DNA of 64,000 nt, from positions 620,001-684,000 of the forward strand of contig NZ_AP029048.1 of NCBI RefSeq assembly GCF_040371545.1. The letters are read 5' to 3'. The stretch comes from Synechococcus sp. M16CYN (GTDB lineage Bacteria > Cyanobacteriota > Cyanobacteriia > PCC-6307 > Cyanobiaceae). The position numbers and the translations under genes are program-made. Positions 1 through 33,758 of the stretch are shown here, piece after piece. The notes under the pieces are model-generated. The model worked only from the letters and a program-made list of their open reading frames with translations, had not been told where the DNA came from and made no database searches. Position 1 is the stretch's first letter; each line of letters begins with the position of its first letter.

Positions 1-3000
1 CAGTTTGCTGTTACTGATCTTAAACCTTAGCTCAAAAAAGTGACTAAGCTTGATGATGCTACTATCATTGTTATTCACACAAGTCTACACGACATAATTA
101 GACTTTTGACCTATGAGTACATATAAATATAATTATTTATAAAGATAAAGTCAAATAGCGTTTTTGTTTAATTATACTTTTCATATCCGTGTTAATTTTA
201 TAAATGTTATAGATAAAAACTAAGCTCTATCTAGATTTCTCGAATAAGCTTATTTAGATAATTTTCATCTCGTTTATTTTTTGTAAAAAAAATTAATTAT
301 AAATAAATTAAAAAAGCTCAATTTGAACATTTGTATTTATAATAATATTTTTAAAGCTAGAAAATTTTTAAAGTAATGCTACGCACTAACAAGTATATGA
401 TTACGTAGCAAAAACCTATTTTAGGTATATTAATTAATTGTATAATATTTTTATTGTCTTAGGTCTAAATTATGCAGATATAAAATGTATTAAGTTTATT
501 TATTTTGTCAATATTTTTTGCAACCTGCTTTTGATAATTACTAGTATAAATAAAATAGTTCAGTTCAAGTCGTATATTGCTAATGCTTAATAATAAATAC
601 TAGATTCTGTTTTAAACAATTTATGATATGTATCGATGATAGTTTTAATAAATACAATTTTACCTATACGATGCTACCTATTTAATCTAATAGGATGCAT
701 TAAAATTCTTCAATCACTTAAAAAATAAAGCTCCCCCATGCATTTTACCAAAACTGTCTCAAATTTTCTTATTAAGATTTTTTAGGCAGTGAATAATAAT
801 TAACTAATTATTTCGCCTTTTTGTTCTTTGAATTCTTAGAGCAATTAAATTAAATTGTTTGGAAAGTAATATGGTATCTTTTAAGTTAATTTTAAAAGTC
901 TTATAAAAGACTGAATAACAATAGTCAAAATTTTAATAAATTTATTAGAAATATGTAAATAATTAAACAGTGTTAACTGTAAATACTGATTGGCTTTTTA
1001 TGATAATTTCATTGAAATCTATATTTATGATATAGTTTATTTCAATAACTTTAACAAATATTTTATTTAGCTTATTGATGATACCGTACTTACGGTCTTG
1101 TAATTTAACATTCCAAATTTTTTCTTTCCTAGGATATATTTAATCTTTTAAGTACAATCTAACAATATTAAATCTAAATTATCTGATTATTAATAATATA
1201 ACTTGTATAAAACTAATAAATTCATAATTTTATGTGATCGCTTTACTCTAAATTATTCAATTCGTATTAAATTAATAAGATTAATTTTCTAGTCTATTTA
1301 ATATTTATAATTTTTAATTTAGCCTACTAATAAACTAATATAAATTCTTTATATTAACAGATATAATTTCTACATATTCTTAGAGATTAGATTTAAAATA
1401 AGTTCAATAATTAAAGCTTTCCCTATATATTTTACAATTATTCTTGTAATTGTTCAGTAAAAAGTTACCTTATAGCCTTGCTACTCTTTAGAGCAAAAAT
1501 ACTAAAATTTAGGCATAATGCGCTAAAAATAATTTGCTACAGTATTTTAAACAGTTAAAATAAATAAAAAATTTTAATAAAGGGGAAAAACTGTTTTTTA
1601 GCAACAAACCGTATAAGTTTATATAAAAAACTAAGTTAGCAAACCTTTGAAATCTGTAACTAACTTATTTTAAAAATAAGAAACTTAATTATCTAGTCAG
1701 TTGCTTTTAAAAGCTATATATCATATTCTTAAACAATTATATATTTTAATTAATATCTTTAGAAGCACAATTCAATTTCAGACTTTCTTGGTAACCCGTT
1801 AATCTTATAATGTACATATTTTGTATTAGTTTCTGCTAAAGAATCGTTAAGTTTATTTATGATAAAAACTAAATTTATTTCAACTAATCTCATAAATATA
1901 TAATATTGATTAAGTAGCTTAATATAAATCTCAATACAATAACTCTATAATTCATCAGCCCATAGCACCTAAGATGACCAAAATTATTTTCGCCTTTTCT
2001 TTTTACAGTGTTCTCCCTCAAGTGCCTCTATTATTATGTATTAATGAATATAAGGCTGAGATCTGAATATTTTAATATGATTTAGCTAGTTTGCATGTTG
2101 CTTACATTTAATTAATTTAACAAATTCCTAGTTGTTAGCTTTTATGGGCTTATTATAGTCCAATTATTTTTTAGCATTTTCGTTTTTATGCTAATCTTAA
2201 TTAATTCTAGCTAAAATTAATTAACTGATTATTTTAATAACTTTTTAGCTATCTTCCCCAAGTATTTATCTTAATGAAATGATAGTAAGTATTTATTTGT
2301 TTGAGATATTTTTTGCTGTTGAAAATATTTGATAAAAACTAAGTTAGAGTAAATCATGCAAATATGCTTAATTTATGTATAAATAATGAAATCTTATATA
2401 GTAACTGTTACGAGGATGAATCTGAACTTTGTTGCTTATCTGAGGTCAGTACCAGTAATTAAAAATAACGGGTGTAGCTGAGCCAGAGTGTATAGAGTTA
2501 TTATAAGAGCTTAAAAAAACTCCAATGGCAGAGACATCCTTGTGGCTGTAGCATAGGCATAAATTGTACGGGCTTAGTCAAAGCTAAACAATGAAACTAA
2601 ACTAAAAGTATTAATCAAATTTGCCATTGCAAATGGTGGCTAAGTTGTCATAAAGTTAAAGAGATTTGAATTTCTTATTCCTAAATATCAGGCCAACTAT
2701 TAGATCATTTCGAAAAAATTAGTATGACAGAATTTATGTAAAATAATTTGCTACGTTTAACGTTGCTTTATTTCTAAATGAATATAAACAGCTACATATT
2801 CCATACTTTACAGTTTAGAGACTAGCGTTTAAGTAGAAGAAACTCACTTTATTTTAGATAAATTAATGTTAAGAAAACAGCAAAGATGATTCTCATACCA
2901 TAGTCAAGTGTATAAGCGAGCTTGTTCGAATAACTCTTTTCGATTCTAGCAATATCACCTATGTTCTCTGTATGACTCAATAGCGAGAGTTATCGCAAAA

Positions 3001-3336
3001 ATAAAATTTAAGTTGCTAAAGGACTGAGCAGTAGATCACAGATACTATTAATGAAGCTGATATTAATCAATAAGAAATATCTTGCTAGTATATCTATTAG
3101 CTTTACGCTAATTCGACTGATGACTCTAATAAAATAATCCGTAACGATATATACGATTGAAATTTAATGAGGGCTTGGGGCTATGAATCGTAAATGTGTT
3201 TTTAAGGTGAAAAGCCAAATAATCCGTAACGATATATACGCTCATGAGTGTTTTATACGGTTATCACTATTCAGGTTGAGCCGTAAACCTTTGAGAGATT
3301 TATAGAAAATCATTAAGACTAAGTTCAAGGTCAACC
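1..3336. other. AT-rich gene desert
   Basis: No credible gene is visible in either strand. The stretch is extremely AT-rich, rich in stop codons in all frames, and lacks any open frame of protein-like composition. It contrasts sharply with the intact genes of the window, which are near 50% GC. It may be fully eroded coding sequence, but no recognisable remnant survives. The only structure I can point to is a 24-base direct repeat near its right end. Confidence 0.7.
3132..3240. repeat. 24-base exact direct repeat, two copies
   Basis: The 24 bases at 3132-3155 recur exactly at 3217-3240, 85 bases apart start to start. Both copies contain the core AATCCGTAACGATATATACG. They lie about 100-200 bases upstream of the small membrane-protein gene at 3337. 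An exact 24-mer is unlikely by chance even in AT-rich DNA, and the sequence is not itself low-complexity. Function is unknown: a local duplication or a regulatory repeat are both possible. Confidence 0.7.
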
Positions 3337-3564
3337 ATGGACCATTTTTTGACACGTTTACGGATGTTTGGAAGCGGCCTAATCATTGCGGCATATTTCA
3401 CCATTTTATATTTAGATATCACTATTGGAGCAATTGTTCATGTAATAGCCATAAGTATTTCACTGCCATACTTTATCAAATCAAAAACATGGGATGTGGT
3501 TGTCATGTTTTCATTCTTAGCCAGTCTCGGAGTAAGTAGGCTTATCACTTCAGGTGTTTTTTAA
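3337..3564 (+). CDS. Conserved-looking small membrane protein, 75 aa
   Basis: Product of unknown function. The 75 residues contain about three hydrophobic segments (roughly 12-28, 29-45 and 53-70), with a basic N-terminus and a polar break at KSKTWD, so it should be an inner-membrane or thylakoid protein. Composition is protein-like and clearly less AT-rich than the surrounding desert, which argues for real constraint. The ATG is preceded by an AAGG about nine bases upstream. From memory it resembles small hypothetical membrane proteins of marine picocyanobacteria; I cannot name a family. It is the only plausible intact gene in the first 5 kb. Confidence 0.65.
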   Translation: MDHFLTRLRMFGSGLIIAAYFTILYLDITIGAIVHVIAISISLPYFIKSKTWDVVVMFSFLASLGVSRLITSGVF

Positions 3565-5042
3565 AAAATTAAATAATATTAAGTTAAGAAGTTTTTTATG
3601 GTAAAGCCCTGAGGGCTAACTCGACTGACAGCTAGTCTATTCTTTAATGAAGTCTTCAGCTAACTCGGCATTATTCGCAACTTACATAATCCAGCGTTTA
3701 ACACTGGAAAAATGCTGAGTGCAGTGAAAAAGCACTTGATTAGTTTGCAATTACTCTATTTACTTAGTACTGAGTGATTAGAAGCTCAATCCCAGATCCT
3801 TCGCTAATTACAAGTTAAGTATACTTGATTGAGGAGTAAAATATTAATATAGTCTATTTTAATAAAATTTTTTGAGTAATTAGCTTAAGAAGCATTACTG
3901 CATGCTATCCAATCTATTTTTTATTGCGAATTAAAAAACTATTAAGGAAGAAATCATGCCTAAACAAAAAAACTACCGGTTTTACTGACAACTTTGAACT
4001 AAATCTATGTAAAACTAGCTAGCTATAAATCACTGTTTTTTACAGTACCTAATTATCAAAGTATACTAGCTCAAAATAATAATTCTGAGCCATAGGTTTA
4101 AGATTTTCTTAATTCTTTTGCAAAGAGTCACATATTAAAAGTTAGCGGGGATTAACTTAATGCGATTTGAGTTATATTATTAGTAATAATAAGCAAAAAA
4201 ATATTATCAATTTTTTAATGGTGAAACCTAAATAATTGACACATCTATATTTATGCAAGGACGAATAATCCAAACAAGAATGAGTTTGAATGCAAAGCTG
4301 TTTATCTAGAGGTAATTGATACTTTCAGTTAAGTTTTACACTTTCAATATTGTTGAATAGTTGAAATTGTTATAAAATGCTTTTGCAAGTGCGTTTGGTT
4401 AGTGCTAACTAGCAACTAGCTTCCAATGATATTCATTGAAGTAAGAAATGTTAGTATTTTTTAGGTCTTCTGTTTAAGTATTAACTTCTTTAGATAGTAA
4501 ACAAGAATTACTCAAAGACACTTGCTAGCATAGTCGTTATTTTGAGAGGCCTATAAAGCTAATTATAAGCCAAAGCCAAGCTTTTAACCGCGGAGGATCA
4601 GTGGTTAAATCTAATTATCTTTCAGCATAATCTCCCGATTGTTGTCTATAGATCTGATGATAATTTTCTCAAATTACCAGCAGCTTCTTGCCATCAGCTA
4701 AAGAGCAACAGCATTTCACAATTGGTTACTTTATTTGAAAGATTTTTAAAAAAATTTGGTTGCCTCAAGCCAAATTCTAGAATATGCTCACTTAAATTGA
4801 TTACCATAAATTTCTGTATTTTATACCATCATCGTTGTTAATTCAATAAATGACTTGTATATCATTACTCCGATTTGCAACTCTCAACTCAATCCACAGC
4901 AGTCTTTTGTCTGTTCCTAGAGGCACTTAGGTCGCTATTGTATTGTCTTAGGCATGCTCGCAGAAAACTTTTATGCATAAAAGTAAATAAATACGAAACT
5001 AGTTAAATAAGACATAGTGCGCAAACTACCGCCTTACAGATA
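3565..5042. other. AT-rich non-coding stretch
   Basis: No gene seen. Frames are closed by frequent stops and composition is strongly AT-biased. A short GC hairpin (AGCCC/GGGCT with a 3-base loop, 3605-3617) follows the small membrane-protein gene and might be a weak terminator, but it lacks a following T-run. Confidence 0.6.
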
Positions 5043-5106
5043 CCTAAAAATTTAGGTTTGGCCTAAAATTTTTAGTGAAGTTAAGGAGACTCGAACTCTT
5101 GACCCC
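5043..5106 (-). repeat. Degenerate copy of tRNA-Ala 3' end plus terminator (putative distal att site)
   Basis: Bases 5083-5106 match 23 of 24 with 8071-8094 in the 3' half of the intact tRNA-Ala(GGC) gene. The similarity extends leftward through the terminator hairpin: 5043-5082 aligns with 8031-8070. Most differences are transitions changing G/C to A/T, and the hairpin arms changed together (CCCAGG/CCTGGG became TTTAGG/CCTAAA), so the stem survives. The copies are in the same orientation about 2.99 kb apart. This is the arrangement left when an integrase-borne element inserts into a tRNA 3' end: the complete gene stays at one end and a displaced 3' fragment marks the other. Confidence 0.75.
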
Positions 5107-5268
5107 ACTGCAATTGGTCAAGTAGCTGGTGCCAAGCAATTGTTACCGGCTCGTTACCGTGGACAGCCTGTTGATCTCGAAAAAAATCAGAGCAAACTCA
5201 TACTTACCAGCCTTATTAAACAAGATTCTTTAGTTATCGATCCAAGTATTCGTCACCGTATCGACTAG
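5101..5268 (+). pseudogene. Orphan C-terminal coding remnant beside the att-like repeat
   Basis: An open frame of about 55 codons runs from the repeat edge to a TAG at 5266-5268. The predicted residues are protein-like (for example QLLPARYRGQPVDLEKNQ), but there is no start codon or N-terminal part. It looks like the tail of a gene truncated at the repeat boundary. Family not recognised. It is followed after 18 bases, in the same frame and direction, by the broken gene starting at 5287, as in an operon. Confidence 0.4.
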
Positions 5269-5286
5269 GAACGCTAAGCAAGGGCT

Positions 5287-5708
5287 ATGGCTGTGCAAGC
5301 CCCCTATCAGATACGAACAGAGTGCTTGCGAGAAGCTAATGAGAGAGTTGCCAAGATCCGTGTGCAGTAGTTCATCAGCGGCATTAATCCTATAACGGTG
5401 AGATACTTCTGATACTTGTTCGACCGCATCCTTGTCTTGGCTGGCTGCACATAAGCCCTAACGACACGCGCAAGGTCATGGATCGTCTGCTGCCTAACCA
5501 TAATACGGCTCTAGAAGCCAACCTAGCCTTAAGTGGAATGTCGCAGTTGTTTATCAACTGGACTTAACAAACATGGTTGCCGTCAAACCCGCACCGCTAT
5601 GAACACCAGGTAGAAGCGCACCTCACCTATCTCGATAGGCGCAGCAAGATCGACTATCTCAACGCAGAGCTTAAGCAGCGCGCTGGTGGTCTTCTGGATG
5701 ACCGTTAG
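5287..5708 (+). pseudogene. Broken accessory gene, two in-frame stops and one frameshift
   Basis: An ATG at 5287 opens a protein-like frame (APYQIRTECLREANERVAKI), interrupted by TAG at 5368 where CAG would continue it. The frame reads on to about 5410. After one shift, a second frame is protein-like from about 5454 (KVMDRLLPNHNTALEANL) through a TAA at 5565, continuing in the same frame as YLDRRSKIDYLNAELKQR to a TAG at 5706. GC content is near 50%, unlike the AT-rich flank. The pattern is a recently inactivated gene of about 140 codons. I do not recognise the family; within a tRNA-bounded island it is probably accessory cargo. Confidence 0.5.
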
Positions 5709-6873
5709 TGTAACTGCTGTGTAACTTGTTATGCGATCGCTACAACGCCAACTGGAGCCAGACAGGCTGTATGAGAGCCATTCTCCTTGATCACAGACGC
5801 CCCCCCTGCTTGAAAGCGTCGTCGAGCGGTGGGCCTAAGAGCTGCACTAAAGACGAACGGTTCCGCATCACTAGAGCGATCGTCTCTGGCGTTATCGCTG
5901 ACATAGCTTAAGACTTTGATGAAGTAAAGCCGATGAAGTAAAGCCGTTGACGGTCGAGCAGCATTTCGTCAAAGCGGGTTGCTATAAGTTCAGTCAAGAA
6001 ACAATCGATAATGCTCAGTAGTCTTCAAAGATTGTGCAGCAGCTTCGATTTCAGAAACGTCTGGAATGCAAACGGTCAATACTAAAGGTTGATAAATCCT
6101 GTTGCTTATCCATATCCCAAGCAATCCTTTCTATTTAGGTGGAATGCCTCTCAGCGAGTAGATGTCTGTGTTGCTACAGCCTCACAAGAGCCTATAGAAG
6201 CAAATTCTTCGATTACGAGAGATATTTCGAAGTCTGGATTGATTATCCACATAGATCTAATCAGCATCCACGCAAGTGCTGCTCGAGCAGCAGTTCCAAG
6301 ACTCAAGGCAGATGCAATGGCAATACGGATTGCTCCTTTCACCACTAGTCAGTTATTGTTACCTAAAATGGCTATGACTACCAAGCACTAGATCAGACAT
6401 CGCATGAATCATGCGGTAAAACTCCCTCTACTTGCTCACTTCACGTAAACCGTCGTGACAAAAATGGCCGCAATGGAGAGGTATACCGCTGTGCAACACG
6501 TCGCCTCACTTCCAGGCCCTGGAAGTCGTTAGAAACAACATGCGCACAGTAAGCAGGTACTGGTAACACCTACAATTGCTGCCCAGGATTTTTGAGCAGG
6601 TTTTTCTCTGTAATCCGTTGCAATGCATCGAATCGAATTTGCTCGGGAGACCTCTGTCCGCAGGTTTTCAGGTAGTAATTCGCTGAGATTGACTGCAAAG
6701 CAATGACTTTGCACTTGCTGGTTATTGCAATATTCTTGGTGCTGTTTGGATGTCGTCCAAGATGTGAAGTAAGTGGCTGCACTTATCAGCATTAATTTAG
6801 CGAATGTTGCCGCAACTGAAATTAATTTTCATAAAGAATTACCAGATACTCAGAGAAATTTATTAAATCTTGA
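5709..6873. other. Decayed island interior, scattered coding-like fragments
   Basis: About 1.2 kb of mid-GC sequence without an intact gene. Short protein-like pieces occur in changing frames on the plus strand (5731-5790 with QRQLEPDRLYES; 5945-6060 with VEQHFVKAGCYKFSQETIDN). Around 6530-6790 on the minus strand, two overlapping frames each look like part of one protein (LSELLPENLRTEV in one, PEQIRFDALQRITEKNLL in the other), suggesting a frameshifted gene. None can be assigned to a family. A 14-base tandem duplication lies at 5918-5945. Confidence 0.45.
5918..5945. repeat. 14-base tandem duplication
   Basis: GATGAAGTAAAGCC occurs at 5918-5931 and again immediately at 5932-5945. A 14-base insertion breaks any reading frame, consistent with slippage in sequence that is no longer under selection inside the decayed island. 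Confidence 0.8.
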
Positions 6874-7284
6874 TCAAGATAGTCCGATTTGTGTAAACAA
6901 GCCTTTGCTGATTACGATTAATACGGTTACAGAAGTAAATGCAATAAGGTTTGCATTCGCTAGCTGAAAAACAAGAGGGCTTGAGCATATGCTTACAGAT
7001 CCTGCGGTATCTTTTTGTTGCTTATCTTTCCCCCAATAACCGAAAACGATAGCCTTTCGAAGTGATAAGGGGTCTAAAGAGGTTACTGCTTGATATCCAT
7101 TCCTCTTAATAGCAATTTGTTGATCCTTAATCCTTTTTGACTCCTGAGCAAAAACCCTGATAAACCAATCTGCATGGGTTTTGATCCCTATAAGAACCCA
7201 CGCGATGACACTTATACCGATGAGAATATTGAGGTAGTGCATAAAGACTAAAATGATTATTATCCGACGATAGTCGGATATCAT
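6874..7284 (-). CDS. Doubtful 136-aa hypothetical, possibly a membrane protein
   Basis: An open frame of 136 codons with a hydrophobic segment at about residues 8-32 and another at about 107-130, separated by a basic middle (ESKRIKDQQIAIKRN). No motif or family is recognised. It sits inside the decayed island, with overlapping frames on both strands, and no clear ribosome binding site was noted. It could equally be a chance open frame. Listed only because of its length and two hydrophobic stretches. Confidence 0.22.
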   Translation of the reverse strand: MISDYRRIIIILVFMHYLNILIGISVIAWVLIGIKTHADWFIRVFAQESKRIKDQQIAIKRNGYQAVTSLDPLSLRKAIVFGYWGKDKQQKDTAGSVSICSSPLVFQLANANLIAFTSVTVLIVISKGLFTQIGLS

Positions 7285-7353
7285 TGTGCATATTTTGCAT
7301 GAAGTGTATGTTTATGATACTTGCATTAAAACTAAAGATACACGCACTCAACT

Positions 7354-7623
7354 TTAAAGGAGCTCACAGCTTTTACTTCTTGTCGAGGTATTCACCCTTG
7401 CTGCAGCATCCCTAATCAATGACGGGCCATTACAACTCTTATGCATTCGATAAGCCACGCCATGCCGTAGGGAGTACAGTTTCAGACCAGGATTTTGAGC
7501 CTGTAGATTTCTCCACAACCGGTAACGCTTCAACTGCTGACGTATCTCATCACCCATCGACTTGAAGCCTTTGGTTTCGATCTCATTGATCTTGTTCGAT
7601 AAGATGCTCATCCTCTCCCTCAT
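7354..7623 (-). pseudogene. Truncated tyrosine recombinase (integrase), C-terminal catalytic part
   Basis: About 80 residues resemble the C-terminal catalytic domain of phage-type tyrosine recombinases of marine Synechococcus: an upstream helix (EIRQQLKRYRLWRNL), then the hallmark Arg-His motif in LYSLRHGVAYRMHKS and a following helix (SLIRDAAARV). The expected MGH...THxxxYxxW segment with the catalytic tyrosine is missing; the frame ends in unrelated residues. The N-terminal two thirds of a usual ~350-400 aa integrase are also absent. It lies between the two tRNA-Ala 3' repeats, near the intact tRNA, where an element's integrase normally sits. Confidence 0.65.
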
Positions 7624-8030
7624 GACCAGGAATATCTATTAGCAGTACCAAACCTGTTTTTGGTTTTTTTCTTGCCTTGAGTGGCTTTGTTTCTTTTGCC
7701 GCCAGAGCGAATTAGAAGTTGTCCGTCTTCTCAGATCATTTAGGCTACTTCATGCGGCCGTAGTCCATGGATGCTAAGTAATCCCTACCAGCAATAATCA
7801 GGCTGGATACGTAACGACGCGTGTGGCAGCGCAGATCGCGGATGATGGTGGCCCGGTTGGCTTGTTGATACTCCTCGATGAAGTCGGCAATAACTGCTTC
7901 TCATCCATCATTATTTGACCTAGTGATGACGGTGAAGCTCTTTCTTGCAATCAGCAGCTGTTTGGAGTCGGCAAGGGAGCAATGACGCTCTGCGATCAGT
8001 TCTTTGAGTTAGCGACCTTCACGAAGAGAA
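7624..8030 (-). pseudogene. Broken coding remnant beside the integrase fragment
   Basis: On the minus strand, from about 8020 down to 7750, a protein-like frame with an internal stop can be read (ELIAERHCSLADSKQLLI, then IEEYQQANRATIIRDLRC and YVSSLIIAGRDYLASMDYG). GC content is near 50%. I do not recognise it. It could be another island gene; it does not look like the N-terminal part of the integrase. Frameshifts and stops show it is not functional. Confidence 0.4.
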
Positions 8031-8032
8031 TT

Positions 8033-8059
8033 AAAAACCCAGGTAGGGCCTGGGTTTTT
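8033..8059 (-). terminator. Rho-independent terminator of tRNA-Ala
   Basis: An inverted repeat of 11 bases (8033-8043 and 8049-8059, core ACCCAGG/CCTGGGT) with a 5-base loop lies just past the 3' end of tRNA-Ala on the minus strand. The minus strand carries T-residues after the stem, and the stem is flanked by A and T runs on both sides, so it could work in both directions. A degenerate copy with compensating changes lies at 5043-5075. Confidence 0.75.
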
Positions 8060-8063
8060 TTAA

Positions 8064-8136
8064 TGGAGCCAAGGAGACTCGAACTCCTGACCCCCTGCAT
8101 GCCATGCAGGTGCTCTACCAGCTGAGCTATGGCCCC
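8064..8136 (-). tRNA. tRNA-Ala (anticodon GGC)
   Basis: A full cloverleaf can be drawn: acceptor stem GGGGCCA/TGGCTCC with discriminator A at 8064, D-arm with GCTC...GAGC, anticodon stem CCTGC/GCAGG around loop ATGGCAT giving anticodon GGC, and T-arm GGGTC AGGAGTTCGAGTCTCC in the expected place. The 73-nt gene has no encoded CCA. It reads GCC/GCU alanine codons. Its 3' part is duplicated at 5083-5106, marking it as the probable integration site of the relict island. Confidence 0.95.
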
Positions 8137-8189
8137 ATTCTGAGGCTGGCTATAATGTCAAGCCTACGCCTCCATCTTCGGCATCGTAC

Positions 8190-8823
8190 ACTACGACCTG
8201 TCCAGAGCTGCCGCCATAAGGCGATGAGCTGCTCTTGAATTCGTATCTGCTCTGTCCGGCAACTCCATTGAAGCGGACATGGAATCTGCCACCTCAAGCG
8301 CAACAGCAAATCTTCGACGGCGAAAACACCTGAGAGTAGAGCTACCGCCAGCCATCACAACACTCACGATCGCGCCGTTTTTAAGATACTGAAGATTCGT
8401 AACCAGCTTCATCAGCACCACATGCTCGTCAGTAATACGAGTATCCATCGTCGACTTTCCACTCACAGCAAGGGCAAACAATCTTCCAATTTGCCAAAAC
8501 TAGCGTTAGCTTCAAACGATTTTGAATGTGGTCGCGTGTGTTGAATGGATTACTTGCTGCGATGGTTCCCAATGCAGGTATACCTAAGGAATGCGCCGTG
8601 TTACTCAGTAACTGAAGAGTGCGCGCCTGACTTTCCGCCAAGTGATCCAACCTTTCTGTTGGAGATGACGTAGCCTACTCCGCGCTGGTGCCGGCGAACA
8701 TGAACCCATGGCCCGCATCGTTTGACGAATAGATGAGCTATGGCATGCATGCCAATGTAATCCACTAACCGGTCGTACAACTCCTGCTGTGCGCACGCCA
8801 GCCTCTCCTGGGGACTGCAAGCC
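8190..8823 (-). pseudogene. lexA: lexA pseudogene (SOS repressor LexA, frameshifted)
   Basis: Pieces in shifting minus-strand frames reconstruct a cyanobacterial LexA in order. The N-terminus has QQELYDRLVDYIGMHA. The winged-helix part in the next frame has SSSIRQTMRAMG and SRLRHLQQKGWITW. After another shift come the linker (SLGIPALGTIAA) and the peptidase-type domain (FALAVSGKSTMD, then KNGAIVSVVMAGG). The C-terminal strand (RIQEQLIALWRQLW) is in yet another frame. At least three frameshifts are needed. The serine is retained in SGKST, but the lysine usually found in a TLKRF-like motif reads TLRCF here. It sits just upstream of argF, as lexA does in picocyanobacteria. The SOS repressor is therefore probably lost unless another copy exists. 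Confidence 0.82.
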
Positions 8824-8916
8824 GCTAGAACATAGAACAGATGTTGAACGATACATTTGCGCATCCTGCCATGCTAATCAGCAAGCAAGAAGGCGGTGTT
8901 TAAAATCTTTCCGACC

Positions 8917-8954
8917 CATAAACCACCTATCAACTCATAAACCACCCATCAACG
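8917..8954. repeat. 19-base tandem duplication at the argF 3' end
   Basis: CATAAACCACCTATCAACT (8917-8935) is followed immediately by a copy differing at two bases (8936-8954). The argF stop lies at the junction, so the last codons of argF (ALMGGL) are duplicated in the 3' untranslated region. It is probably a slippage duplication; it does not obviously damage the protein. Confidence 0.8.
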
Positions 8955-9891
8955 CAGCCAATAAAGCTTGCTGGGCATGAAGCCGATTCTCGGCCTGATC
9001 GAAAATCCTACTGGATGCTCCCTCAATTACCTCAGCGGTAATTTCTTCACCACGGTGGGCTGGCAAACAGTGCAACGCAATCGCATCCTTGGCGGCATGA
9101 TCCATCAATGCTTGATCGACGCAAAAAGACGCAAAGGCGCTCTCTCTTTCCATTTGCTCTTGTTCTTGTCCCATAGAAGCCCACACATCAGTATAAACCG
9201 CTTGGGCACCAGCAACCGCCTGCACTGGGTCTGTGAGTACTTCGATTGTGGCGTCATGCTGAGCTAGAGATCGAGCTTGCTCCAATACTCCTGACAAAGG
9301 TTCAAATCCCTCTGGACAACTAATGCAAATATTGACGCCTAATAACGCACCACAAATCATTAATGAGTGTGCAACGTTGTTGCCGTCACCGATATACGCC
9401 AAGGTCTGACCCGGAAGCTCGCCATGCTCTTCTTGCATAGTGAGGAAGTCCGCAAGGGCTTGGCAAGGATGTTCGAGGTCAGTCAAAGCATTAATTACGG
9501 GAACCGAAGCCCAATGTGCATAGTCGACGAGCTCTTGCTGGGCAAATGTTCGAATTGCCAGAACATCGCAGTACCGACTCAACACACGAGCAGTGTCCCG
9601 TAATGGTTCACCGCGACCCAACTGCGTCACTGTTGGATTTAGATCTATCGTTTGACCACCAAGACGGGCCATCGCTACCTGGAAACTAACCCGAGTACGA
9701 GTAGAAGCTTTGGTAAAAATCAGACCAAGAATGCGATTACCAAGATCAATCTGACGATCTCCTGATTTAAGTTGCGCCGCCAGAGTGAGCAAGGCCGTTG
9801 TCTCGCTAACAGACCCATCTGCGGATGAAAGATAATCACGACCTCGAAGTCCTATTAATGAGGCTGCGACCTCTTCAACAGCCATAGTCAT
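8935..9891 (-). CDS. argF: Ornithine carbamoyltransferase
   Basis: Catalyses carbamoyl phosphate + ornithine to citrulline in arginine synthesis; cytosolic. The 318-residue protein has the usual length and all family signatures: carbamoyl-phosphate motif STRTR at 63-67, HPCQ at 141-144, and HCLPAHRG at 274-281 with the ornithine-side cysteine. The start at MTMAVEEVAA could alternatively be the internal ATG at codon 3. It lies between the dead lexA and ftsH, all on the minus strand, with 48 bases separating it from ftsH upstream, so it is probably cotranscribed with ftsH. Its 3' end carries a short tandem duplication but the enzyme looks intact. The other arginine gene here is argD. Confidence 0.96.
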   Translation of the reverse strand: MTMAVEEVAASLIGLRGRDYLSSADGSVSETTALLTLAAQLKSGDRQIDLGNRILGLIFTKASTRTRVSFQVAMARLGGQTIDLNPTVTQLGRGEPLRDTARVLSRYCDVLAIRTFAQQELVDYAHWASVPVINALTDLEHPCQALADFLTMQEEHGELPGQTLAYIGDGNNVAHSLMICGALLGVNICISCPEGFEPLSGVLEQARSLAQHDATIEVLTDPVQAVAGAQAVYTDVWASMGQEQEQMERESAFASFCVDQALMDHAAKDAIALHCLPAHRGEEITAEVIEGASSRIFDQAENRLHAQQALLAALMGGL

Positions 9892-9896
9892 AATAG

Positions 9897-9914
9897 CAAT
9901 CCTTCAAAGGACTG
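9897..9914 (-). other. Small hairpin between ftsH and argF
   Basis: In the 48-base gap, CAGTCC and GGATTG (minus strand) can form a 6-bp stem with one G-T pair around a 6-base loop. There is no T-run after it, so it is not a convincing terminator. It might attenuate or stabilise the ftsH-argF message. Confidence 0.3.
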
Positions 9915-9939
9915 TTATCAGAGATGAATAGGGTGCCCG

Positions 9940-11817
9940 TCAAGCTGTAACAACACTCTCTGGCAGCACACTGGCCTCTAGCATTTGTTTGAGATCATCG
10001 CCTTCAATCACTTCTTTCTCAAGGATCTTTTGAGCTATAGTCTCTAAAAGGCCCATGTTTTGGCGAAGGATCGCTAGTGCGTCATCATGAGCTTTATCGA
10101 CAAGTCCACGCACCTCATGATCTATAGCTTGTGCAGTAGCATCGCTCACAGATCGGCGTGGATTGTTGTTGTTACTCAGAAAACGGTTATTACTCTGTTT
10201 GTCGTAGGCGAGAGGACCAAGTGTGTGGCTCATGCCATAGGTGCCTACCATTTGTTCAGCAAGATCGGTAGCCCGTTGCAGATCGTTAGCTGCACCAGTT
10301 GTGATTTTGCCAAACACAATTTCTTCAGCGGAACGACCGCCTAACAAAGTAGCGATTTGACCCTGAAGATCTTCTTTAGAGTTGAGGAAACGTTCTTCGG
10401 TCGGCAACTGAAGCGTGTAACCAAGGGCGCTCATGCCCCTTGGTACAATTGAGATTTTAGCAACCTTGCTGCCACCAGGCATAAGGTGGCCCACGATGGC
10501 ATGACCAACCTCATGGTAAGCAACCACTTTTTTCTCGTCATCTTGAAGGACACGACTTTTTTTCTCTAAACCTGCAACAACGCGTTCAATCGCTTCACTT
10601 AAATCTCGTTGTTCAACACGAGTGCGCTTTACACGAGCAGCTAATAAAGCTGCTTCATTGACAAGATTAGCTAGATCTGCACCGGCAAACCCGCTTGTCG
10701 CTTGCGCAACACAGTTAAGATCTACACCTTCAGCCAGCTTCACCTTTTTAGCATAAATCTCGAGAATAGTTTTACGACCAGAAAGATCTGGACGATCAAC
10801 TAGCACCTGACGATCGAAACGACCGGGACGCAATAGGGCTGCGTCAAGAACCTCGGGCTGGTTGGTGGCCGCAAGCACGATCACGGGTTTGTCTTGAGCA
10901 GCAAAACCATCCATTTCTGTGAGCAATTGGTTCAACGTCTGCTCACGCTCATCGTTTCCACCCACAACGCCCATAGAGCCAGAACGACTTTTACCAATAG
11001 CGTCTAATTCATCGATGAAAATAATGCACGGTGCTTTTTTCTTTGCCTCTTCGAATAAGTCACGAACACGGGCAGCACCGGCGCCAACGAAAAGCTCTAC
11101 AAATTCTGAACCGGAGATAATGAAGAATGGGACGCTTGCTTCTCCAGCAACAGCCTTCGATAATAAAGTTTTACCTGTTCCGGGAGGGCCGACCAACAAC
11201 ACGCCTTTCGGAATACGTGCACCAATTTCGGCATAACGCTCCGGTGCTTTCAGAAAGTCAACGATTTCAGTGAGTTCTTGCTTTGCTTCATCTACGCCTG
11301 CAACATCGGCAAATGTAATTCGGGATTCTTCATCCGGCACGTACACCTTGGCTTTGCTTTTTGTGAAGCTTAGTGCTCCTTGGGCACCACCACCCATGGA
11401 ACGACGAGCAAAGAATTGCAAGACCAAAATAAAAATTAGGGGTGGAACAACCCAGCTCAAAATAGTCGTAAAAATGTTGGGCTTTTTTGGAGGAGCTGCT
11501 GCAAATTCAACCCCCTTCATCTCAAGACGTTGGGGAAGATCCATGTCGAAAATGGGAGTTGTTGCTAAAACAGGAGGAGTTCCCTCCTCTGGATTAGACA
11601 GTTCATAGCGGATCTGGTCTTGGGTGATGAATGCTCTCCTCACAGCACCGTCATTCACTTGATCGATGAAGAGTGAATAGGGAACCCTTGGCACTTGTTG
11701 CATGCCATTGTTAGGAATAAAGCTACTGAACAACAGCAATACCCCGACGCCAATCAATACCAAGTTGATGATTCCAAAACGACGGTTGGGTTGGTTATCG
11801 TCTTGACGGATTGGCAT
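9940..11817 (-). CDS. ftsH: FtsH-type ATP-dependent zinc metalloprotease
   Basis: Membrane-anchored AAA+ protease that removes damaged or misassembled membrane proteins; cyanobacterial homologues act in photosystem II repair. The 625 residues show two transmembrane segments (about 15-33 and 117-137) flanking a lumenal or periplasmic domain. Then come Walker A GPPGTGKT at 210-217, the pore region [13 protein letters not shown] at 243-255, Walker [12 protein letters not shown] at 265-275, and the second region of homology with RPGRFDR near 330. The zinc site HEVGH is at 435-439. Length is typical and nothing is missing. Cyanobacteria have several ftsH paralogues; I cannot say which one this is. 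It is upstream of argF on the same strand. Confidence 0.96.
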
Positions 11818-13304
11818 ATAGCCACACTTAAACTGGCATCACGCTACGAGGGAAAAAGCAAAGTGTGACTGAGAAGCATGGGTGTAAGAACCGAACGGTT
11901 CCTAAAGTTTGACGACGGCAGTCGGTGCAAGCTTGAGTCGCCTGCCGAACGTTTGTGTGCTTCCAGCACCCACGGCCCGGAGTAGAGGGCGGACAGACGC
12001 TTTGCTTAATGTCTATATCCCCTGGTCGTTTCTTCAACCCGGAGAAATCATAAAACAAGAAAGAGCCACCGTGGTACACGGCCTTTTAGGGCTTCCTCCC
12101 GACTGAGTCGAAGATTTGCTTGCCAATCCGTGACCGACCTAACTTACATGTTGAGATTACCGAGTAAAAGTATTTGGCTTCGTATACTTAATAGTACTGT
12201 CCATAGTTGTTTGCCCCACTTCGAACCTCAAGAACCGGTCTTTGAAAATGGTAATCAGATCGATCAGAACAGCCATAGGTTTTTGGTTCGCGAGACTTTG
12301 GTTCGAGCTTTTGAAATAAGCCTAGATGATAGATGAGAATGAGGCGAAAACTTATGGCGTCATCAATTACATACATAAGCCAATGCCTCGATTAAAAAAC
12401 TATATGGGTCTGAATCCCATAATCATTTCATATAATCTCAATAGTTCTGGCTTGAGTCTGAAAACTGATGATTGTAATCAACTGCTTGAAGCAAGCTACT
12501 TCCTCTACCCCCAAAATAAAGCTGACCCTATACAATAGGGCACATCTGCATTGCTGTTAGCTGATCACCGACAGTCTTTGCTAATACGACCTGAGGTCTT
12601 CATAGATAGTTAGTTGATAATATCTAGCTAACCGTAACTAGTTAATATCGCAACGATGTCGACAGCAATGTTCTGTGCAAACCCTACCGCTAGCCGTGCG
12701 AAAATGATAGACGATAGTACTAGCCGAAATCGTGTTTCTACCATGAATCAACCATAGTAATCTGCTATATCTTCTTGCGTTTGTTTATATCATTTGTCTA
12801 AACTAGATGCTAGCATTATCAATGCACGTTCAGATAATAATGTATAGAATCATAATACCAACTATAGCTAACTGACTATACCGTAACTTTAGAGTTTTGC
12901 CGTGGTCGCAGAGTTACCCTGGTTGTTTACCTCTAGCAAATCCAGCCCTTATAGCCTCTTTCTTGCCGTAAGTTAAAGCACTACAATGCGAGCAAATGCG
13001 ATTAGATTAATGAAATATTCAACCCTAAGGATCCGAGCCAATATTGGATAGACTGTTTTTGATGAGGACTGCAGCTTCCTGTCTTTTTAAACACAATGCA
13101 TACACTCTAAACTGTTAATCGCTGTATTTCTTCGTTTCACTACCTGTGGGTTGGCAAACATCAGCCCTACTTCTGTTGTACATAGTGATGCGTACAGATA
13201 CAGTCAGCGCCATTCTATTTGATCTCACTGGCAGGATGTGCAGATATGCACTGCTCAGTCTGTTATTACAATGGTCAGAGTAGAGTGACCATCCTCGCAG
13301 TGCT
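11818..13304. other. Gene-free spacer between ribD and ftsH
   Basis: About 1.5 kb with no gene I can support. GC is moderate next to ftsH (to about 12.1 kb), then falls. Open frames here are short, overlap on both strands and lack recognisable protein character. It is likely to contain the ftsH promoter near its left end and eroded sequence beyond. Confidence 0.6.
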
Positions 13305-14369
13305 CTAGCGATCGATCCTCAGACTGAACAGCCAATCTTCCCCATAAGACTTGGGAGGCAACAACGTTCCAACCACCACTTGATTCATCTTTGTGAAACC
13401 AAGATCATCGATCGGTGTGCATGCAGATTCCCCTCCCATTAGCTTAGGTGCCACAACAGCTACCACCTCTTGAATACAACCTTGCTTTATGGCCGAAGCG
13501 GACAATCCCGGACCACACTCCCACAACACACAATTGCAGCCTCGAACCGCCAGTTCCTGTAATAAAATCTCTGGTTCACAGGCTGAAAGAGCATGACGTT
13601 GCGGGCCGCAGGGAATCGATCGCTTCATTGCCTCCGGTCCATGCACTACCAGGGTGGGAGCTACAGCTGTATCCCAAAGATGAGCCGTGGCTGGGAGATC
13701 CAAGCTGCGGCTGAGAACAACTCGAAGTGGCTCTGGCATACGACGCCCTCTACTAGTAAGCAGCGGATCATCGGCACGCACGGTACCACCGCCGACAATC
13801 ACCGCATCGCATTTTGCACGCAGGCAGTGTACCCATCGACGAGCAGACGGTCCCGTGATCCATTGGCTCGCTCCGTTGCTTAGGGCAATACGGCCATCTA
13901 ATCCCATAGCCCATTTGAGAATGCCCCAGGGGCGTCCGGTGCGAACCCGGTGGAGGAAAGCACGATTCTGAGCAGCTGCCTCAGCTTGTAAAACCTTGCT
14001 CAACACTTCAATCCCTGATGCACGGAGACGGGCGATGCCGCCTCCAGCAACCCGTGGGTCGGGATCCTCAAGGGCAATTACAACGCGGGTGATTCCAGCT
14101 CGCAGCACGGCCTCAGAACAAGGAGGAGTGCGGCCGTGATGGCAACAGGGTTCAAGTGTGACCACTAATGTTCCGCCCTTTGCTCGATCTCCGGCCTGCG
14201 CAATGGCGCCGACCTCGGCATGGGGTTCACCCGCACGAGCATGAAATCCTTCTCCCACCAACTGTCCGTGGCGATCCAAAACAACGGCCCCTACTAAAGG
14301 ATTGGGGCTTGTGACTCCATCGGCGAGTGCAGCCAGCGCTAAGGCGCGCCGCATCCAGGTATCCCACAT
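13305..14369 (-). CDS. ribD: Bifunctional riboflavin biosynthesis protein RibD
   Basis: Performs the deaminase and reductase steps after GTP cyclohydrolase II in riboflavin synthesis. The N-terminal deaminase has the zinc motif HAE at 50-52 and PCCHHGRTPPC at 74-84 (numbering from the chosen start). The C-terminal half is the dihydrofolate-reductase-like reductase domain, beginning near GILKWAMGLDGRIA. I start it at the ATG at 14369, giving 354 aa: this ATG overlaps the stop of the upstream gene as TGATG, a typical coupled start. A longer frame to 14402 would overlap that gene by 34 bases. ribF, which acts later in flavin synthesis, lies elsewhere in the window. Confidence 0.94.
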   Translation of the reverse strand: MWDTWMRRALALAALADGVTSPNPLVGAVVLDRHGQLVGEGFHARAGEPHAEVGAIAQAGDRAKGGTLVVTLEPCCHHGRTPPCSEAVLRAGITRVVIALEDPDPRVAGGGIARLRASGIEVLSKVLQAEAAAQNRAFLHRVRTGRPWGILKWAMGLDGRIALSNGASQWITGPSARRWVHCLRAKCDAVIVGGGTVRADDPLLTSRGRRMPEPLRVVLSRSLDLPATAHLWDTAVAPTLVVHGPEAMKRSIPCGPQRHALSACEPEILLQELAVRGCNCVLWECGPGLSASAIKQGCIQEVVAVVAPKLMGGESACTPIDDLGFTKMNQVVVGTLLPPKSYGEDWLFSLRIDR

Positions 14370-14854
14370 CAGAAAAGCGGTAAAGTCTGAAGCGAGCGCC
14401 ACTCACTCACAACATATGGAGGAATGGGAAGCTCAGTAAACACTCCAGGGAGTACTAAACGTAGCGGACGATTGTTGCTAAGATCGTCAAGTAATGGATC
14501 GAGACTAAATTCAGCAGCGGCTTCACGACCATCTCCAACCAAAACTGGGTTTTCCAGCGTGATGTCGTTTAGAATCCAAGTATGGCGACCGGCTAGGACT
14601 TGAAGGCTGACAGGATGATTTAAACGCAGCTTGCCTGGATAACCGACGATGCGAAGCACCACCGGCTGACCAGGCTGACCTTTCCGGTAAGCCACAGTTT
14701 GCCAGCTGTCGTAATCCAAATCCCGAAGGCTTTCAAGTGACCGAACTATTGCAACACCTGTTTCGTTTTCATGCTGATGAACCTGTGCTCGAGCTAAGCC
14801 AGGAATTACCAGCAATACTAAAGCGACTAACAACGAACAAATTAGACGATGCAT
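14369..14854 (-). CDS. Secreted cyanobacterial protein, DUF3122-like
   Basis: 161 residues starting with a clear signal peptide (MHRLICSLLVALVLLVIPGLARA, cleavage near 23-24), so the mature protein is probably periplasmic or lumenal. The body contains a LRDLDYDSWQTVAYRKG stretch and a beta-rich core; I believe it belongs to the cyanobacterial DUF3122 family, whose function is unknown. It is directly upstream of ribD with a TGATG stop/start overlap, so the two are cotranscribed and translationally coupled. There is no evident functional link to flavin synthesis. Confidence 0.82.
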   Translation of the reverse strand: MHRLICSLLVALVLLVIPGLARAQVHQHENETGVAIVRSLESLRDLDYDSWQTVAYRKGQPGQPVVLRIVGYPGKLRLNHPVSLQVLAGRHTWILNDITLENPVLVGDGREAAAEFSLDPLLDDLSNNRPLRLVLPGVFTELPIPPYVVSEWRSLQTLPLF

Positions 14855-15744
14855 TTGGGCAAGACCTTGAAAGAATTGGGCGGAACATTACTAGTTCTGA
14901 ACAGAACTTTCTTGACGATGGGAGAAAGGACAAACACTAATTAAGTACTAGTAGGGTTGGTGTATTTGATTTGATACAGCTGAGGGTTGCCAAAATTTTA
15001 TTTTTTCCGACTGAGTAAGAAGAAACATGGAGAACCAGAAGTGTCTAAACTCGAGTGTTGCAATTGGTTACTTTAAGCTTTCTGTGCAGTTTGAGAATTC
15101 AACCTCTGCTTCCCGAAACTTGGCTATCAGGCAAACATGACCCAGGCCACTTTCGTCGAAACACGGTTTTTACCAATGCTCTCAATTTAGATTAACTAAG
15201 CTATAGCAATTGGAGACATAGAGTCCGGATAGTATCGCCATTAATTCACGGTGGGACAACAGTTCACAACCTTAGCATATTTGTAATATACCTAATGGCT
15301 TATTCTAGCGTCCATGGGTTTAAACATTGAACTAATGTTTTTCTTTCTAAGTTGTGCCAAGAGTTTTTGTTTGTATTGCGTTTGTATATTTTTGACGTAC
15401 AAGTATGCTGACACCATGGTACAGAGTTACGAAGAAGTTTGTCTAATCAATAGAACAAACCTATATAACCCCCCACAACATTTGACTAGCACTGCTGACG
15501 TAGTTTTATCAATCAAATTTAATCAACTCGCCAGGCTGCCCGCTAAAAATCTTAAAAGTTACCTTAATTAAGCGTTTTTATCTGCAAGCTTGTATTTTGT
15601 TAAGTGACAGTAACGCACACTATCAGATATCCAGTGATATAGTAGATACTAGCTGTTTAATATGTGAATATTTCGACTAAGCTGGCAGACTGGATTGTTT
15701 TTGAGTATGGTTAGTGTTAAAGATTCTTAATATGAGACATACTT
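14855..15744. other. Gene-free spacer
   Basis: No supportable gene. One 85-codon frame on the plus strand (15314-15571) has an erratic composition and no family features, so I do not call it. The stretch is AT-rich and spans the upstream side of the DUF3122-like gene. Confidence 0.55.
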
Positions 15745-15905
15745 GATACACTCGTGGGTTTTGGTTCAAAGACTCCGGTTGAGCACATCGAACCCTGAAT
15801 ACGTGCAGTTCGCACTGGGTTGTCTCTACATGTGAAAGCTAGAAGCGCGTCACATGTAGTGCAATACAAAGCACTTCGAGTTCATGGCTAAAACCGCTCT
15901 GGTCT
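15745..15905. ncRNA. Candidate structured RNA or complex terminator, multi-hairpin element
   Basis: Several nested inverted repeats are packed into about 160 bases just past the GH116 gene. There is a perfect 10-bp stem CTACATGTGA/TCACATGTAG (15826-15835 and 15850-15859, 14-base loop). A second stem is AACCC...GGGTT enclosing GTGC/GCAC (about 15791-15822). A GTGC/GCAC pair lies near 15859-15875. Closing pairs TCGAA/TTCGA and GGTTTTGG/CTAAAACC surround them. It stands out from the unstructured AT-rich neighbourhood. No known RNA family (6S, tmRNA, RNase P, SRP, Yfr1) fits the motifs I remember. The transcribed strand is unclear. It could also be the 3' end of the GH116 transcript. Confidence 0.4.
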
Positions 15906-15948
15906 GAAACTGATGTGATTCACCCAAAGATTACGTAACGTAACAGTG

Positions 15949-18459: not shown

Positions 18460-18480
18460 AGCCTGTCAGATTTAAGGTCC

Positions 18481-18723
18481 TCAGCCAGGGTTGAGATTCT
18501 GCGAAGTGTCCTCTGCGTCCAAAAGAGCGTCTAGGGTGACCACCGTACGAACCAAAGCCTGGTAACGATGAAGCGTACGGCGGTTTTGATCCAACCAACG
18601 CGCTGGTGTACTGCCACCGGCCAGTGCGGGCAATTCCTCGTCCATCAGGGGCAATTCTTCTTCTCTGGCTATCAAAGCCAGCAACAATTCGTGTAAACGC
18701 TGACGTCTTTCAGTTCGCTTCAT
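18481..18723 (-). CDS. Small hypothetical protein, 80 aa, upstream of GH116
   Basis: Function unknown. Chosen start is the ATG at 18723 (MKRTERRQRLHELLLALIAR), because it overlaps the stop of the preceding tiny ORF as ATGA. The frame is open to an upstream ATG at 18750, which would give 89 aa. The protein is charged and leucine-rich, predicted mostly helical with possible coiled-coil character in the first 35 residues; no signal peptide or membrane segment. It ends 21 bases before the GH116 start and is probably cotranscribed with it. Codon composition resembles the neighbouring real genes. Confidence 0.55.
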   Translation of the reverse strand: MKRTERRQRLHELLLALIAREEELPLMDEELPALAGGSTPARWLDQNRRTLHRYQALVRTVVTLDALLDAEDTSQNLNPG

Positions 18724-18869
18724 ATCAATCTCAACAGTCGCTGTGAGCATTGTTTACGCAAGGAAGCCATGATGACCGGATCGAGCTGATGGTCAGCAGC
18801 CTGACCAAATGTATTCAGAAATTGGCTGTTCTGCTTGGTGCCAAATCGAAAGGCCGAATTGTTCATCAT
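18720..18869 (-). CDS. Tiny hypothetical ORF, 49 aa, coupled to the next gene
   Basis: A 49-codon frame starting at tandem ATG ATG (18869) and ending in TGA at 18720-18722, which overlaps the ATG of the following 80-aa ORF as ATGA. Residues include RFGTKQNSQFLNTFGQAA; it is polar and has no membrane segment. Support comes only from the coupled overlap and the protein-like composition. It could be a leader peptide for the GH116 transcript or the trimmed end of an older gene. Confidence 0.35.
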   Translation of the reverse strand: MMNNSAFRFGTKQNSQFLNTFGQAADHQLDPVIMASLRKQCSQRLLRLI

Positions 18870-19484
18870 TGATTTTAATTGTAAGTAACAACTACTGCAC
18901 CGAATTGCTATAAGCTACTTCAATCGGTTTATCCGCCGGACCCGTTGCTTGACCTAAATTAGAGATTAAACTAGTTAATTTCAGCTTTAAGGAGATAAAT
19001 TGTGCTCTAGAAAATTGCTTTAACACTATTGAGACTAGGCTATATGTGCAAAATTTTGACCAAATAAATGTGATCTCTCTATCTGCATCAGTACGCAACC
19101 AAATGGGTCTGTGATATAGCTAAGCCACAGGTTTTTAAAGTAGTTAGTAATAATGAGCACAACTCGCAGAAATAGAGCAAGTAATTCAGCCAGTAGGAAA
19201 AGTATTCTAGTAGTGCTAACATACGCGTTTAATCTAATGAAGTAAAGCTAGTGCATATGATGATGTTAAGTGATTATGACTCAAAAACCAGGCCGAAGAT
19301 TTGACTGCTGGGCTTATTGTATGACTCTATCGCCAATAGAGGTTAGCGAAATTGAAAAGACCGACTGAACTAGAGATGCGCAAGAATATTCATAGCCTTA
19401 TAAAATCAGCAATTGTCAGAAAATCTAGAAAACAGCTGATAATAACCCGATTTTAAAATATCAACATTCTGCCATAATTCTCTG
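18870..19484. other. Gene-free spacer between divergent genes
   Basis: About 600 AT-rich bases between the minus-strand GH116 group and plus-strand cobL. No supportable gene; it should contain both promoters. A minus-strand 68-codon frame (18892-19098) has a weakly protein-like end but no recognisable family. Confidence 0.5.
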
Positions 19485-33734: not shown

Positions 33735-33758
33735 ACCAGCAGAACCAAGCCTGCTGGT
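33735..33758 (-). terminator. Hairpin downstream of the CpcS/CpeS-like gene
   Basis: ACCAGCAG (33735-33742) and CTGCTGGT (33751-33758) form a perfect 8-bp stem with an 8-base loop, about 40 bases after the stop of the lyase gene. The minus strand continues TGTCATAAG without a T-run, so it is a weak terminator or an mRNA 3'-end stabiliser. Confidence 0.45.

Follow-up and report, generated by a model that had tools for sequence, protein, structure and literature searches.

Mobile elements at tRNA genes of picocyanobacteria

The tycheposons of Prochlorococcus (Hackl et al. 2023) are described in excerpts of PMC10872708 and PMC11389934; they are bordered by a tRNA gene and contain a tyrosine recombinase and cargo, and the first of these papers gives them as 4–200 kb in size and located at one of seven tRNA genes. 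Another kind of picocyanobacterial element, defined by its integrase, is located at tRNA-Phe or tRNA-Cys (excerpts of PMC10187409). The locus described here, in a stretch of 64,000 nucleotides of Synechococcus sp. M16CYN (contig NZ_AP029048.1, positions 620,001–684,000; hereafter the window), is a further example of the tRNA-integrating tyrosine-recombinase elements, a kind already known. A tyrosine-recombinase gene is present beside the attachment site, in the form of two pseudogenes. Tycheposons typically contain replication genes (primase and helicase), whereas neither the proteins of relative G003 nor those of 59 relatives' loci have a match to such genes in the window: the primase and helicase of G003 were compared with positions 1–20000, and the replication genes among the open reading frames of the 59 loci gave no match at 1e-4. 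What is shared with the tycheposons, as defined second-hand via PMC10872708, is the tRNA border and the tyrosine recombinase. The elements of PMC10187409, as far as its excerpts describe them, are alike in having a tyrosine recombinase adjoining a tRNA gene, in occurring in islands of Prochlorococcus and Synechococcus and in their variable cargo, but here the site is tRNA-Ala(GGC), and while their integrase is not captured by PHROGs models, the intact relative of ours, from G016, matches PHROG_1.

The most similar elements are those at tRNA-Ala(GGC) of the same genus, found in G016, G046, G013, G039, G003 and Synechococcus UW105 (L090). They have the same half-tRNA repeat, their integrases form one tyrosine-recombinase family with the remnants described here, and tandem stacking also occurs among them; primase and helicase genes are present in the G003 and UW105 elements. 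Unlike in these elements, both copies in our locus are broken and shortened.

Half-tRNA repeat and integrase remnants

The features of the locus, in which outer and inner denote the presumed older and younger element, are the following:

1–5042, no strand: AT-rich, ORF-poor stretch containing the outer element
4678–5023, minus: tyrosine-recombinase remnant of the outer element (residues 27–119 at 4967–4678; residues 4–119 with looser gap costs)
5043–5073, minus: hairpin tail of the outer element, adjoining the displaced half tRNA (folding, tail alignments)
5074–5118, minus: displaced copy of the tRNA-Ala 3' half, putative joint of the outer and inner elements (nhmmer, blastn, alignment)
5113–5415, plus: pseudogene corresponding to gene 1 of the element in G006, with 54/100 residues identical and 4 stops, lacking the first 32 residues
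5412–5705, plus: pseudogene corresponding to gene 2 of the element in G006, with 62/96 residues identical and 1 stop
6874–7284, minus: undamaged ORF of 136 amino acids (49/123 identical to a G016 ORF, L075)
7399–8028, minus: tyrosine-recombinase pseudogene of the inner element (residues 94–422, 3 stops, 5 frameshifts, internal deletion)
8031–8061, minus: hairpin tail of the present tRNA, probably its terminator (folding, consensus terminator scan)
8063–8137, minus: tRNA-Ala(GGC), the integration site (Rfam match)

At the element boundary the tRNA 3' end is directly repeated. The preliminary description of this DNA took 5043–5106 and 8031–8094 to be copies of the tRNA-Ala(GGC) 3' end with its terminator, 23 of 24 bases being identical in the tRNA part. 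This count is correct for the innermost 24 bases, as read from the sequence, and the tRNA part of the two intervals agrees at 28 of 33 positions; the terminator part is weaker (12/31 identical, ungapped), and over the whole 64 nucleotides the ungapped identity is 40/64. The 3'-half copy at 5074–5118 is recognised by nhmmer (E 4.6e-11) and by blastn (E 2.5e-7, with the whole genome as search space). The exact half-tRNA core pattern occurs at two sites in the genome only, the displaced copy and the tRNA itself; no third copy was found above background in 600–629 kb or on the 17-kb contig, and an Rfam scan of window positions 1–20000 gave no match besides the tRNA. The same exact core is present in six viral contigs, of which five have distant integrase-like matches in the stretch of sequence compared. 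When the DNA of 4900–8300 was compared with phages, each of the 20 matches listed, of 103 records, covered only the tRNA stretch; plasmids gave no match to window positions 1–4600. A single search of viral contigs with the intact integrase likewise yielded no relative, a result that speaks neither for nor against phage satellites, which are packaged in helper phage particles.

A truncated tyrosine recombinase with an LRHG motif had been proposed on the tRNA side, and the remnant reading was to be abandoned if integrase profiles gave no match at 7354–7623. The ORF at 7354–7623, taken alone, indeed matches no family at E ≤ 1 in Pfam or in PHROGs. Direct comparison with the intact 474-residue integrase of G016 overturns this outcome: the ORF belongs to a broken tyrosine-recombinase gene (8028–7399), identical to the G016 protein at 134 of 208 residues. 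The intact integrase itself matches PHROG_1, integrase, with an E of 6.7e-14, and PF00589 of Pfam with an E of 0.0012, which is below that family's cut-off. The catalytic set of tyrosine recombinases consists of R, H/K, R, H and Y; the inner remnant retains the stretches GLRPHE and YSLRHG, which we take to be motifs of these enzymes, and ends before the carboxy-terminal part of its relative expected to hold the tyrosine. The genome's two other tyrosine recombinases are of no evident kinship, with no match at 1e-8 among ORFs of at least 330 amino acids in their two loci and none at 1e-3 by tblastn.

ORFs of the interval and its flank gave no mobile-element family in Pfam (ten proteins, including argF) and three weak matches, none to an integrase, in PHROGs (nine proteins, E 0.0075–0.36). 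The whole inner element was not seen in any one relative; genes 1 and 2 match G006, while the ORF at 6874–7284 matches another contig of G016.

On the far side of 5043–5106, a second integrase remnant (4967–4678) of the same type and on the same strand is located. It is short, with 93 aligned residues, and it begins immediately to the left of the tail at 5043, with residue 4 at position 5023. The whole-genome match has an E of 2.7e-5 and plain tblastn an E of 0.002. A frameshift-aware alignment scores 108, to be compared with at most 47 in 200 Markov shuffles, at most 41 when the remaining flank is taken in 2-kb segments, and 32 with the reversed query. The query integrase is the sole one of 203 proteins to exceed the control maximum of 49, the remaining integrases in this set not standing out. 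A profile of nine integrases gives 3.6 bits, against 3.2 for the best control, and a profile of four sequences 8.5, against 6.0 (200 shuffles). The rest of this integrase was sought in 1–4700, where the score of 32 is at the level of chance.

Both hairpin tails fold better than shuffled sequences, that of the present tRNA with −15.8 kcal/mol (z −4.46) and the displaced one with −9.8 kcal/mol (z −3.84). A gapped alignment of the two tails scores 25, the maximum of 300 shuffles being 21. Compared with 51 tails of relatives, the displaced tail scores at most 17 and the tail at the tRNA up to 38 (38, 32 and 28). The tail at the tRNA is thus closer to relatives' tails than to the displaced tail, and tail similarity is therefore not taken as proof of one element type. 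It had been suggested that the arms of the hairpin changed together and that the displaced hairpin is kept through terminating transcription. The stem, paired throughout except for one bulge, and its fold would suit a hairpin still ending transcripts, but it contains few G-C pairs and, unlike the present tRNA's own tail, is not called by the consensus terminator scan; furthermore, no intact leftward gene was found directly upstream, up to the ORF at 6874–7284. Tails at the other copies of the tRNA-Ala half vary widely, and joint changes of the arms cannot be read from two sequences without an ancestor. Survival of the hairpin through a role in termination is not supported, and we consider such a role unlikely.

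Probable tandem arrangement at tRNA-Ala

The preliminary description proposed that the tRNA-Ala locus be compared in related genomes, and this comparison revealed sites both with and without an element. The sites of G021 and G009 are empty: no half copy was found there, and the distance from ridA to the tRNA is 0.9 and 1.2 kb, respectively. Other relatives have larger elements at tRNA-Ala, some of them in tandem. G013 (L063) and G016 (L069) retain, in intact form, the order integrase, tail, half tRNA and next element. An integrase lies beside the tail of the tRNA itself in UW105 (L090), where its frame is open, and in L091; G006, G007 and G046 have a broken one at this place; in G003, G039 and G042, and for one copy in G046, the integrase is on the opposite side of the half copy.

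Very probably, two or more relict integrative elements stand in tandem at tRNA-Ala(GGC). The interval 5043–5106 is read as the joint between them because its far side adjoins another integrase remnant, alike in type and strand. We infer that each element carried a copy of the tRNA 3' half together with a hairpin tail, next to which lay a tyrosine recombinase, and that integration rebuilt the tRNA from the element's own copy, displacing the resident DNA outward. The crossover would have been close to the anticodon arm, the point at which the majority of the relatives' half copies end. The older element (integrase 5023–4678, tail 5043–5073, half tRNA 5074–5118) would then have been pushed away from the tRNA once another element, sharing its integrase type, had integrated between them; this second element would comprise the remnants of genes 1 and 2 (5113–5705), the ORF at 6874–7284, the integrase at 8028–7399 and the tail at 8031–8061. 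Both integrase genes are broken, leaving the elements relict as regards mobility through their own integrase, and both elements, now dead, have shrunk through deletion and frameshift while drifting to A+T.

The preliminary description had a single remnant of about 3 kb, decaying in place and ending outward at 5043–5106; on this view the AT-rich stretch to the left would be ordinary chromosome. Decay in place at the tRNA 3' end is retained in the tandem reading, and a single island would likewise have the repeat at both ends, an integrase remnant on the tRNA side and a displaced copy with its own tail, like the native tRNA end. It does not account for the second remnant, matching the first in integrase type and strand, that abuts the half copy on the left. 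The corresponding flank in eight relatives is never below 0.398 GC, so the sequence on that side differs from the chromosome usual in this group; one island is accordingly very unlikely. Taken alone, the half copy would look the same if recombination had partially duplicated the tRNA without any mobile element, but integrase remnants adjoin both copies and relatives have the same arrangement with intact integrases, making such a duplication extremely improbable.

Decay of the two elements

The outer element is far more decayed than the inner one: the outer integrase remnant has a GC content of 0.348 and 9.7 stops per 100 codons, the inner one 0.476 and 1.4. In a comparison with four native remnants, all located within the window, the decay of the outer element is at least that of the native genes lost in the stretch. 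The inner element belongs with the remnants that have decayed least and comes closer to the broken lexA. These values would be no measure of age if the outer stretch had arrived AT-rich. In keeping with such an arrival, no homologs were recognisable for this 9.6-kb stretch except the integrase remnant, and elements of this kind do include AT-rich genes, the G016 relative of the ORF at 6874–7284 having a GC content of 0.405. However, the intact integrases of the family have 0.53–0.60 GC, in spite of which the outer remnant has reached its low GC and high stop density, and low GC is also reached by native genes decaying in this genome (0.376 for the phyH-like remnant). An AT-rich arrival is therefore rather doubtful.

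The host cyanobacterium probably lives with a dinoflagellate. The genome paper of CregCyn, a dinoflagellate symbiont, in the excerpts of PMC11150560, states that its data cannot tell whether islands predate the symbiosis and describes its island as without transposition genes; the remnants described here are mobile-element genes too broken for gene calling. If each new element inserts beside the tRNA, the elements lie along the chromosome in the sequence in which they arrived, and the stacked order, combined with the A+T drift of dead DNA, would provide a relative clock for the entry of elements into a shrinking symbiont genome. Tentatively, the array may be such a layered record of gene influx, in which the inner element arrived, or at any rate died, well after the A+T-biased decay began, a possibility to which we give less than even weight. 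If true, mobile DNA still reached the symbiont after genome reduction had set in, which would bear on the question of island timing left open in the excerpts of PMC11150560.

Relict elements at the tRNA-Ala gene

The preliminary description had placed one relict island of about 3 kb between two repeats, 5043–5106 and 8031–8094. Both the tRNA integration site and the relict element are confirmed, with corrected boundaries, and a second element is added to the left. The features are:

8063–8137, minus strand: tRNA-Ala(GGC) gene
5074–5118: copy of the 3' half of this tRNA (half copy)
5113–8061: younger element
5113–5415: gene 1, broken version
5412–5705: gene 2, broken version
6874–7284: undamaged open reading frame
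left of 5074: older element

The half copy is found by nhmmer with an E-value of 4.6e-11 and by blastn, genome-wide, with 2.5e-7. Exact matches to the core of the half tRNA occur nowhere in the genome but at these two places; blastn against the same genome matches three further places elsewhere, all more weakly than the tRNA itself. As to the claimed repeat, the tRNA part holds, with 28 of 33 positions identical, while the terminator part is identical at just 12 of 31 (ungapped).

The reading frame 7354–7623, previously taken for an integrase, gives no match at E ≤ 1 in Pfam or in PHROGs; what stands is that the region 8028–7399 aligns to an intact integrase of 474 amino acids from a relative, G016 (locus L069), with 134 of 208 aligned residues identical, in several frames and with three stops and five frameshifts. 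About 106 internal residues are gone from the remnant, as are both ends. The reference integrase itself matches PHROG_1 with an E-value of 6.7e-14 and Pfam PF00589 with 0.0012, below Pfam's own cut-off. At the far end from the integrase lie the broken genes 1 and 2, which in another relative, G006, are neighbours and likewise adjoin a half-tRNA copy. Between these and the integrase remnant, the undamaged reading frame has 49 of 123 residues identical to one of G016 (GC content 0.396, against 0.405 in that relative), and it may still function as a gene. An element of like layout is present at tRNA-Ala in G006, its integrase being split over frames. The best-conserved segment of the window integrase is 68% identical over 66 residues to that of G016, against 49% over 45 residues to that of G006; on the ground of this greater nearness to G016, the window and G006 insertions would be separate events.

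When the genome is searched with the intact integrase, an extra match appears at 4675–4884 on the minus strand (residues 53–120, E 2.7e-5). Frameshift-aware alignment places residues 27–119 at 4967–4678, with 40 of 93 identical, nine stops and one frameshift, and with looser gap costs the remnant reaches residue 4 at 5023. The score of 108 exceeds those of all 200 Markov shuffles (maximum 47, mean 33, s.d. 3.6), of the other 2-kb segments between 611.65 and 623.04 kb (at most 41) and of the reversed query (32). The left flank was screened with 203 proteins of 110–650 amino acids from 16 loci, with the SelO gene cut out; only the G016 integrase rose above the control maximum of 49, and none of the other integrases among the 203 did. 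Profile tests were weaker, with 8.5 bits for a four-sequence profile (best control 6.0) and 3.6 bits for a nine-sequence integrase profile (best control 3.2); plain tblastn gave an E-value of 0.002. The remnant begins immediately to the left of the hairpin tail (5043), which is also the layout of intact elements of that type. The segment 5043–5118 thus joins two elements instead of bounding a single one, and the left-hand remnant belongs to a second, probably older element.

Around this remnant, approximately 9.6 kb have a GC content of 0.17–0.34 in a genome of about 0.5 (G000:C1:615200-624900 on the main contig, that is, window positions 1–5042 and 4.8 kb leftward). There is no open reading frame of at least 100 amino acids left of the window and none of at least 76 within the window part, nor, in the 203-protein screen, any recognisable homolog save the older integrase remnant. 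An exact 24-base direct repeat lies in this stretch (3132–3155 and 3217–3240, starts 85 bases apart).

Decay and relative age

In 500-base bins along the contig, GC content is 0.17–0.25 at 615–622 kb, 0.26–0.34 from there to the half copy, 0.40–0.51 in the younger element and 0.51 in lexA. In the stretches profiled from eight relatives no 1-kb bin falls below 0.398, and integrase genes of the family have 0.53–0.60. For the younger integrase remnant the values are 0.476 GC and 1.4 stops per 100 codons, compared with 0.348 and 9.7 for the older one; gene 1 has 0.452 and 4.0, gene 2 0.517 and 1.0, and lexA 0.515 and none. As a native yardstick we used the remnant of a phyH-like dioxygenase gene (34327–35126, minus strand; 0.376 and 5.7), which has era on one side and a cpcS-like gene on the other, all named from sequence likeness; three relatives (G003, G006 and G014) have it as an open frame. 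Three more native remnants (11950–12456, 18732–19258 and 20745–21004) have 0.387–0.438 GC, with scores of 61–120 and without shuffle controls of their own. Six other rows (0.40–0.56) were left out as yardsticks, five resembling diverged or cut but living genes and the sixth being a short match of score 61. Because of its GC content and stops relative to the native remnants, the older element is the most decayed recognisable remnant among those compared, and the younger is among the least. This difference may reflect age, although the elements may have started from different GC contents, death may long postdate arrival and the yardsticks are few. Elsewhere, 1.9 kb of AT-rich sequence (31919–33797, 0.294 GC) separate the trmD-ispF frame from the cpcS-like gene, which are at most 7 bases apart in G003.

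The same tRNA gene in relatives

In the stretches examined, 21 half copies of tRNA-Ala occur across ten genomes of the genus: four in G016, three each in G013 and G046, two each in G010, G012, G039 and G042, and one each in G003, G006 and G015. This count leaves out a tRNA-Val match (L223) and the partial matches at argF in five loci (L096, L097, L102, L107 and L116). In G013 and in G046 a single contig holds the tRNA together with three half copies, of which the outermost in G046 has diverged furthest (79.6% identity, the other two having 96.0% and 95.7%). For 19 of the 21 the match ends at query positions 46–57, within the anticodon arm or shortly beyond it (the arm ends at 48), and for the other two at 65. 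Empty sites, which the preliminary description had proposed to look for, exist: G021 and G009 lack a half copy in the stretches examined, with ridA-to-tRNA gaps of 0.9 and 1.2 kb.

The order seen in the window, integrase, tail, half tRNA and next element, is intact in G013 (L063) and G016 (L069). The integrase adjoins the tail of the tRNA itself in UW105 (L090) and L091, and broken integrases occupy that place in G006, G007 and G046; it lies on the opposite side of the half copy in G003, G039, G042 and, for one of its copies, G046. Counting M16CYN, the genus has 34 genomes here, and 19 of them contain a relative of the integrase at E ≤ 1e-10. Primase and helicase genes are carried by elements of G003 and UW105, and cargo such as CobW, ZnuA and HupE family proteins by elements of G046. 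The exact half-tRNA core also occurs in six viral contigs (L194–L199), without a complete tRNA in the stretch examined and with distant integrase-like matches in five; these are perhaps other elements sharing the site.

Folding beats shuffles for both window tails (z −3.84 and −4.46). In the consensus scan, terminators are called at the tRNA's own tail and at 5520 but not at the older tail, and the total is no higher than in shuffles (3 sites, mean 2.9). The idea that the displaced hairpin still works as a terminator is therefore not supported. Nor is it shown that the hairpin arms changed together: tails at other half copies differ so widely that they point to no ancestral form, and some relatives' tails align to the younger tail with a higher score than the older one does.

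The host genome

The genome also has two tyrosine recombinases whose reading frames are open over 473 and 449 amino acids (G000:C1:297824-298249 and, on the 17-kb contig, G000:C2:5653-6270), with a weak integrase-like remnant at C1:197766-197996. lexA (8205–8831, minus strand) is a pseudogene with four frameshifts and the sole LexA DNA-binding-domain match in the genome, and such a match is strong in all 18 other genus genomes at least 90% complete; LexA seems to have been lost from this lineage.

By size and kinship, the M16CYN genome, with contigs of 1,940,073 and 17,326 bases, fits the published CregCyn, the symbiont of Citharistes regius, which has a 1.94 Mbp chromosome and a plasmid of about 17 kbp and is sister to Synechococcus clade IV (PMC11150560); 'Pseudogen' and 'lexA' are absent from the main text of that article. 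In the literature searched on tycheposons, tRNA/integrase islands, tRNA-Ala in Synechococcus and CregCyn we found no account of the locus, and the original tycheposon paper may cover tRNA-Ala elements. The relict array is of a common kind; what is unusual is its host.
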